Source of the DNA: Cupriavidus sp. IDO
Lineage (GTDB): Bacteria; Pseudomonadota; Gammaproteobacteria; Burkholderiales; Burkholderiaceae
Length of the DNA stretch: 64,000 nt
Assembly (NCBI RefSeq): GCF_000812465.1
Contig: NZ_JWMA01000055.1
Location: 1-64,000, forward strand
Reading direction: 5' to 3'
The notes under the pieces are model-generated. The model worked only from the letters and a program-made list of their open reading frames with translations. It was not told where the DNA came from and searched no databases. Made by a program: the position numbers and the translations under genes. Positions 31,920 to 32,065 of the stretch are shown here, one piece after another (position 1 is the stretch's first letter; each line of letters begins with the position of its first letter).

Positions 31920-32017
31920 AAAAGAAAACGCCCGCGCCGTTTGACCGGCGCGGGCGAAGTTTCCATTCTGGAAACGGGTAGACAAGTCATGAAGAGCGCC
32001 CCCGCATCTCCATGACA
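31920..32017 (-). ncRNA. Candidate FNR/Anr-controlled small RNA
   Basis: A predicted transcript of about 100 nt in the sbp-ferritin gap. Three stem-loops are visible in order of transcription: GTCATG with CATGAC (31986-31991, 32011-32016, with a G-rich 19-base loop), GTTTCC-agaat-GGAAAC (31959-31975), and an 11-bp GC terminator stem (31929-31939 with 31946-31956) followed by TTTTCTTTT. The predicted start, 32017, is set by the FNR-like box and -10 upstream. No open frame here looks real. Established FNR-dependent RNAs in other groups (FnrS, PhrS) share this layout, but I know of no named homologue for this one. Confidence 0.5.
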
Positions 32018-32023
32018 GGATGG

Positions 32024-32065
32024 ATGTTATCGGCACGCCGGCGGCCGCGGGTTGATCAAGGTCAA
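32024..32065 (-). promoter_or_regulatory. FNR/Anr box and -10 of the candidate small RNA
   Basis: TTGACCTTGATCAA (minus strand, 32052-32065) matches TTGAT-N4-ATCAA at 9 of 10 bases. A -10-like TAACAT is at 32024-32029. With a start at 32017 the box is centred at -41.5, the exact class II position for FNR-type activators. There is no -35 element, as expected for such promoters. Confidence 0.55.

Follow-up and report, generated by a model that had tools for sequence, protein, structure and literature searches.

Small RNAs under FNR control are an already known kind, to which FnrS and PhrS belong. FnrS, found in Escherichia coli and its relatives, is an intergenic RNA with a class II FNR site and is similar in size to the RNA described here. 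In the excerpted part of its source, the FnrS promoter is placed in the FNR regulon and the RNA is stated to repress more than 30 mRNAs that are dispensable without oxygen (PMC8139620). PhrS of Pseudomonas aeruginosa depends on Anr, the Fnr homologue, and is induced in hypoxia; it is described as a dual-function RNA, which acts by way of an upstream reading frame to activate pqsR (PMC8395346). Homologous small RNAs can occur together in one genome, for example NgncR_162/163 in Neisseria and AbcR1/2 in rhizobia, as far as the excerpted reports on them go. In addition, the Rfam family RF02278 (Betaproteobacteria_toxic_sRNA) is order-wide and often multi-copy, and it combines a UGUCU start, a terminator, and a CUCCUCC-type anti-ribosome-site motif.

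Cupriavidus is a genus noted for hydrogen use and CO2 fixation, bioplastic, metal resistance, denitrification, and legume nodulation. The window analyzed here (the whole stretch of 64,000 nucleotides from Cupriavidus sp. IDO) carries on its minus strand a candidate small-RNA gene, whose promoter layout is like that of FnrS and also like that of PhrS. The RNA has no Rfam match over threshold, which separates it from both; it differs from FnrS further in having several siblings in most genomes and in its taxon, and from PhrS in keeping no reading frame across 22 hairpin variants, as read by eye. Sibling RNAs within one genome are shared with NgncR_162/163 and AbcR1/2, and in every copy read the Cupriavidus siblings are preceded by an equally spaced FNR-like site, a comparison confined to the Cupriavidus promoters. 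The UGUCU start and the terminator are as in RF02278, whose CUCCUCC-type motif is absent from the Cupriavidus RNA of the type found in the window (type A).

The reading preferred here, with a probability of roughly 0.7, is that the locus belongs to a stand-alone small-RNA family, which is switched at low oxygen by an FNR-type regulator and most probably works by pairing with mRNAs in trans. That the gene and an FNR-type site before it are real is itself very probable; sequence and comparison support the gene together with its structure, conservation, and siblings, as well as the box and its spacing. A sequence-only reading of the window had proposed an FNR/Anr-dependent small RNA candidate at this place, and box spacing and covariation argue for that proposal. 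At low oxygen, Fnr would bind the box centered at about −41.5 (class II activation), and an RNA of ~96 nt, ending at an intrinsic terminator with a U-tract, would accumulate. It would pair in trans with mRNAs through a single-stranded linker, perhaps also through an exposed GGGG loop, and the pairing would lower the output of genes unwanted at low oxygen. Hfq-bound RNAs likewise finish at an intrinsic terminator followed by a U-tract. We infer transcription, Hfq binding, the mode of pairing, and the direction of regulation.

On this basis, the Cupriavidus RNA would be a new family of the FNR-controlled kind. That no RNA of such a layout had been named in the genus, as the sequence-only reading held, agrees with the Rfam comparison, in which neither the window nor six sibling loci matched any of 4227 families above its gathering threshold, and with the literature searched, which consisted largely of papers outside subscription and contained no description of the small RNA and no named oxygen-responsive Cupriavidus small RNA. 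The literature without a description includes the excerpted parts of studies of B. cenocepacia (PMC5688073) and H. seropedicae (PMC7011215). A copper study of C. metallidurans reports 35 likely small RNAs, and 'FNR' is absent from its main text as excerpted (PMC7563307).

The gene lies in a 440-bp gene-free gap between the end of a ferritin-like frame (32117, minus strand) and the start of a sulfate-binding-protein frame (31676, minus strand). In the direction of transcription, the FNR-type box TTGACCTTGATCAA (32052..32065) matches TTGAT-N4-ATCAA at 9/10 bases and is followed by a −10 element, TAACAT (32024..32029), which is conserved among type A copies. The box and the −10 element together suggest a transcription start at 32017 (or 32016), which puts the box center (32058.5) at −41.5. 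The proposed RNA, a type A family member of ~96 nt (31921..32017), consists of three hairpins, the last of which is a terminator. Hairpin 1 (31986..32016), with a GCG-GGGG-CGC tip that is common to the sibling types, is followed by the single-stranded linker UUGUCUACCC (31976..31985), near-invariant in type A and a possible pairing region, by hairpin 2, GUUUCC-AGAAU-GGAAAC (31959..31975), and by hairpin 3 (31929..31956), the intrinsic terminator stem with 11 G-C pairs here, which covaries in the genus and runs into the U-tract TTTTCTTTT (31920..31928). The sequence-only reading had described a 440-bp gap with an FNR box, a −10 element, three stem-loops, and a terminator in that order, and all were found where it put them; the box scored 9 of 10 consensus bases as it had claimed, and its box-to-start distance of −41.5, with the start 7 bp past the −10 element, holds for a start at 32017. 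A two-hexamer scan for sigma-70 promoters between 31000 and 33000 returned 0 sites (0.3 expected), which fits an activator-dependent promoter. FNR-like sites with at most two mismatches number 24 in the 64 kb, three of them with one mismatch, against 8.6 expected from shuffles. Within the window alone, the box is therefore not beyond chance, and it is the box-like site at the same distance in 113/113 copies of the RNA that lifts it above chance.

These copies were collected across the genus. The small-RNA sequence was found by DNA search in 59/60 genus genomes, the sole miss being a genome of 54% completeness (G047), and a hairpin pattern search gave 127 matches in 58/60 genomes against one for the reversed pattern. 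Siblings at other loci share the GCGGGGGCGC hairpin tip. When copies from the pattern, covariance-model, and BLAST searches are classed by hairpin sequence, types A, B, and C occur in 59, 45, and 25 of 60 genomes, respectively, with one to five copies (usually two or three) per genome; of the 59 genomes with a copy, 51 hold two or more types; the genome G056, for example, has five covariance-model matches. The genome of the window holds all three types, on contigs C168 (which holds the window), C148, and C24. Types B and C sit at loci other than that of type A, and the three type B loci whose neighbors were read lie near dicarboxylate-transporter-like and GntR-like genes (named by eye). The linkers differ by type, being UUGUCUACCC in type A, the anti-ribosome-site sequence CUCUCCCC in type B, and GCUUCCGG in type C.

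The spacing of the box was examined in a first set of 100 loci, from which five (L078 and L238-L241) were dropped as terminator-like chance matches; 95 had the hairpin pattern and 94 of these had 80 nt of upstream DNA, the other lying at a contig end. The loci were picked by hairpin and not by box, but the first BLAST query included the promoter. The best FNR-like 14-mer within 80 nt lay 50-52 nt before the hairpin in 94/94 loci (63 of type A, 25 of type B, and six of type C), and 19 further type C copies had their best site at the same position in 19/19 cases (searched within 100 nt of the tip), so that the best site lies at this distance in 113/113 copies with upstream DNA. Absence of the FNR box from neighboring species, together with absence of covariation, had been named beforehand as a result that would refute the candidate, and a box-like site was present in all 113 at the same spacing. 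Class II geometry, with an FNR/Anr box near −41.5 of the RNA's own promoter, is thus found for a start that is proposed from sequence.

Box scores of at least 8/10 were reached in 104/113 copies, against 3/1786 displaced windows taken from the first loci. A match of 9/10 or 10/10 is limited to 51/113 copies, including that of the window, with 8/10 in 53 and 7/10 in nine. Among 63 type A copies, the score is 9/10 in 35, 8/10 in 25, and 10/10 in three; among 25 type B copies, 8/10 in 12, 10/10 in nine, and 9/10 in four; and among 25 type C copies, 8/10 in 16 and 7/10 in nine. In the type A alignment (63 copies), eight of the ten box columns are 84-100% conserved and the inner two 54 and 70%; five of the six −10 columns are conserved at 76-92%, with the first T-A and last A-T columns at 84-92%, while conservation is mostly 35-60% in the flanking columns and 90-100% over the RNA's first 45 nt. 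Many copies carry TTGAC-N4-GTCAA instead of TTGAT-N4-ATCAA, and the type C copies read carry TTAAY-N4-GTCAA. The left half-site is TTAA, not TTGA, in all 25 type C copies (L234-L237, L242, L244, and L447-L465), at the same distance, which speaks against one regulator for all types; type C may therefore answer to a different or weaker signal.

Four Crp/Fnr proteins are encoded in the genome, and a single one of them passes the NCBIfam Fnr cut-off (250.9 vs 228 bits). Its gene lies on the same contig as the window, 148 kb along, and adjoins a cbb3-like oxidase cluster (read by eye). Two perfect 10/10 boxes are present there, one ~70 bp upstream of the cbb3-like operon's first frame and the other ~50 bp upstream of the large frame that follows. 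FNR activates cbb3-type oxidase genes. These two boxes (L350, 16201-16214 and 19080-19093; contig C168, ~154-157 kb) would make a good positive control, and the frame that follows is copper-ATPase-like. We infer that Fnr, and not another Crp/Fnr-family protein, drives the small RNA. The same RNA might instead be driven by another family member with the same half-site, for instance a nitric-oxide sensor of the Dnr/NnrR type, with nitrogen oxides as the signal. Dnr and Fnr boxes are nearly alike, three of the four Crp/Fnr proteins fall below the Fnr cut-off, and the TTGAC-N4-GTCAA boxes of many copies and the TTAAY-N4-GTCAA boxes of type C would suit such a sensor. Against it, the protein that matches Fnr best is the one encoded beside the cbb3-like genes, close to consensus boxes, and the retention of the RNA in 59/60 genomes makes a core regulator the likelier driver; control by another Crp/Fnr-family protein is judged unlikely.

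The second line of support for the preferred reading, a low-oxygen small RNA switched by Fnr, comes from the fold. Both the minimum free energy and the centroid structure of 32019-31922 consist of three stem-loops (−53.9 kcal/mol, z = −6.5, 0/200 shuffles as stable). Five folded siblings gave z values from −3.1 to −6.3, with 4/200 shuffles as stable in one of them; hairpin 1 and the terminator stem formed in 5/5 and a separate middle hairpin in 3/5. In the type A alignment, 97.6% of cells pair, and seven pairs change on both sides, six of them among the 11 pairs of the terminator, against 0-2 when the alignment is slid. This count is not above shuffles (199/500), and the covariation score is (0/500). 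Among 19 distinct 31-nt variants of hairpin 1, 5/13 pairs change on both sides, a count reached by 3/500 shuffles and against 0-1 in slides. Covariation, which had been named in advance as a test of the candidate, is therefore present in hairpin 1 (5/13 pairs) and in the type A terminator (6/11).

The tip GCGGGGGCG is invariant across the 19 hairpin-1 variants, an invariance that is partly due to selection because the collecting patterns required the tip; an unbiased DNA search also found it in 79/80 loci, the remaining one being a chance terminator match. Since the stem covaries and the tip is constant, it is base pairing that is conserved in the lower stem and sequence in the tip, which is what an exposed loop with a function would show.

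The pairing region was approached through preference for ribosome-binding sites over coding DNA, measured for eight segments, uncorrected for their number, with 100 shuffles each at 342 start sites (of 502 frames) in two 400-kb stretches. The 5' part of RF02278, the positive control, prefers ribosome sites (0/100 shuffles as low), as does the type B linker (1/100), with 8/100 for type B' and 16 and 10/100 for type C. The type A linker was rejected as a generic anti-ribosome-site pairer (66/100 shuffles as low), and so was the G-rich loop (49/100). The suggestion of the sequence-only reading that Shine-Dalgarno-like sites could be masked by the G-rich first loop thus gained no support, and its alternative of C-rich sites was negative in the one two-species duplex scan that bears on it. 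In that scan (113 gene pairs), the top-20 mean was no better than shuffles (12/30 as good for the linker and 23/30 for the loop); the best linker match beat 29/30 shuffles, but contained a long bulge and looked spurious, and the best loop match was beaten by 28/30 shuffles. Similarly, complements of the linker 14-mer with at most two mismatches gave 30 hits in the own genome, including itself, and 88 for the reversed control, which is no enrichment.

The motif 'CGGGNAGACA' within 8 nt before an ATG occurs in the own genome five times besides the RNA itself, against 0 for the reversed control. By eye, the five were named as livH, benzoate-CoA ligase, an anti-sigma-like gene, a TRAP small-permease-like gene, and one without a long frame. 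The gene livH (a branched-chain amino-acid permease, named by eye) carries an 11-nt complement of the type A linker in which one position is free. Among 50 loci examined, drawn from 58 genomes with a livH match, the ribosome site is CGGGNAGACAATG in 41/50, a near-match in four, and absent in five, while the bases before it vary more. Because the complementary stretch overlaps the Shine-Dalgarno sequence, livH is a weak candidate target of the type A linker. Two other candidates were read by eye and rejected, in loci of which those from minus-strand matches displayed the wrong end. For benzoate-CoA ligase, 13 of 18 readable loci (of 30) keep GGGGAGACA, which is largely Shine-Dalgarno, and the preceding bases vary; for atpC, 9/30 loci were readable and the match was kept in 0/8 relatives.

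The exposed G-rich hairpin could also serve as a protein-binding decoy, or sponge, with base pairing being secondary. The tip is kept in all types while the stem covaries and the linker and hairpin 2 differ, and the loop does not favor ribosome-binding sites; both points speak for a decoy. The CsrA/RsmA consensus site contains GGA, and the loop, which has no GGA, is therefore not a site for this protein. The linker is likewise near-invariant within type A, and the constancy of the tip stems in part from the search pattern. Taken with these points, a sponge seems quite improbable, and pairing in trans remains the preferred mode of action.

At the type A loci, clpB often precedes the RNA, with or without a ferritin gene, and in 46/64 cases a codirectional sulfate-binding-protein gene lies 260-460 nt beyond the start of the hairpin. 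This arrangement would suit an RNA that acts in cis on the downstream gene, as a leader or attenuator. The RNA is closed by a strong terminator, however, the gene is 644-1361 nt away in four loci and outside the examined stretch in 14 (two of these stretches being truncated), and types B and C sit at other loci, which makes a leader very unlikely beside a stand-alone RNA.

Beyond single loci, a scan of named genomes for hairpin 1 gave 54 stretches, of which 50 were from Cupriavidus (one a MAG), two from 'Burkholderiaceae bacterium 16', and two from 'Ralstonia sp. 25mfcol4.1'. When 63 type A copies were used to build a covariance model, its best scores were 98.9-127 bits in the 30 genus members of the family-level sample, against weak matches of 27-36 bits (best 36.4) in 34 of 219 family genomes of other genera. 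At the order level (300 genomes), two matches were strong, both in Cupriavidus, and 8/298 of the others were weak. Loci from 28 of the 41 genomes with weak matches had no hairpin tip at the match, two of the 28 having the 9-mer elsewhere, on the other strand and outside a hairpin, and no FNR box was seen in place at the 20 weak-match loci inspected by eye. A loose hairpin pattern occurred in 8/396 non-genus genomes across the order; these eight had no FNR-like site above 7/10 upstream and none at 50-52 nt, and by eye one of them (G440) could pair its lower stem and the other seven pair poorly. On the loci checked, homologues in other genera were rejected, and conservation across Burkholderiales, to which the sequence-only reading had looked, was not borne out, the RNA being found, among the genomes searched, in Cupriavidus only.

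In another genus of the family (L206-L214 and L218), a different conserved small-RNA-like element was seen, with GGCCCCGTCGCC followed by a hairpin and terminator; no FNR box was seen in place there by eye.

The RNA might also be a diverged member of RF02278, which gave the top Rfam alignment (26.2 bits), the matched parts sharing the UGUCU start and a GCCCG...CGGGC terminator. The family cut-off is 50 bits; of 30 RF02278 loci, all carry the GUCUCCUC-type motif and none has the GCGGGGGCG tip in the 150 nt preceding it; the RF02278 copies of the own genome are separate loci; and the RF02278 5' end prefers ribosome-binding sites while the type A linker does not. Membership is accordingly rated as highly improbable. 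The own genome has six RF02278 matches (L094 and others; contigs C18, C148, C51, C65, C162, and C1), two of them over the cut-off. The RF02278 5' end is complementary to AGGAGAC, the commonest ribosome-site motif in two relatives, and its preference for ribosome sites could explain the toxicity in the family name. Four of 30 RF02278 loci (L086, L087, L098, and L110) have an FNR-like site of at least 8/10 (one of 10/10), 113-142 nt before the motif.

The weakest alternative, a short leaderless peptide (M-E-M-R-G-R-S-S-stop) read from an eight-codon frame at 31986-32013 in the window, with its AUG 3-4 nt past the proposed start and its stop inside hairpin 1, has in its favor the in-frame AUG to UGA of the commonest type A hairpin and is scarcely credible, as the changes track stem pairing and not synonymous codons, the frame is lost in type C, which is shorter by 2 nt, and some variants lack the stop (all by eye).

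For the family as read here, an FNR-like site before every copy read predicts induction at low oxygen, for which the three copies in the genome are ready probes. A wider and more tentative proposal is that the G-rich GCG-GGGG-CGC hairpin is a reusable module, joined to a different linker in each sibling, and that Crp/Fnr-family regulators activate all the siblings through one promoter geometry, with Fnr acting on types A and B and a TTAA-reading relative perhaps on type C. Low-oxygen signals might in this way reach several sets of targets, and symbiotic plasmids might have recruited extra copies. If the siblings do share one hairpin and differ in the linker, they would offer a clean system for how duplicated small RNAs divide targets. 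Extra type A copies (L032, L044, L054, and L062) were found on a 770,893-bp contig and on contigs of G042 and G056. The 770,893-bp contig, which has the same length, may be the symbiosis plasmid pSym of strain UYPR2.512, a nodule isolate. All four extra copies keep the box and hairpin 1, amid frames of weak codon bias.
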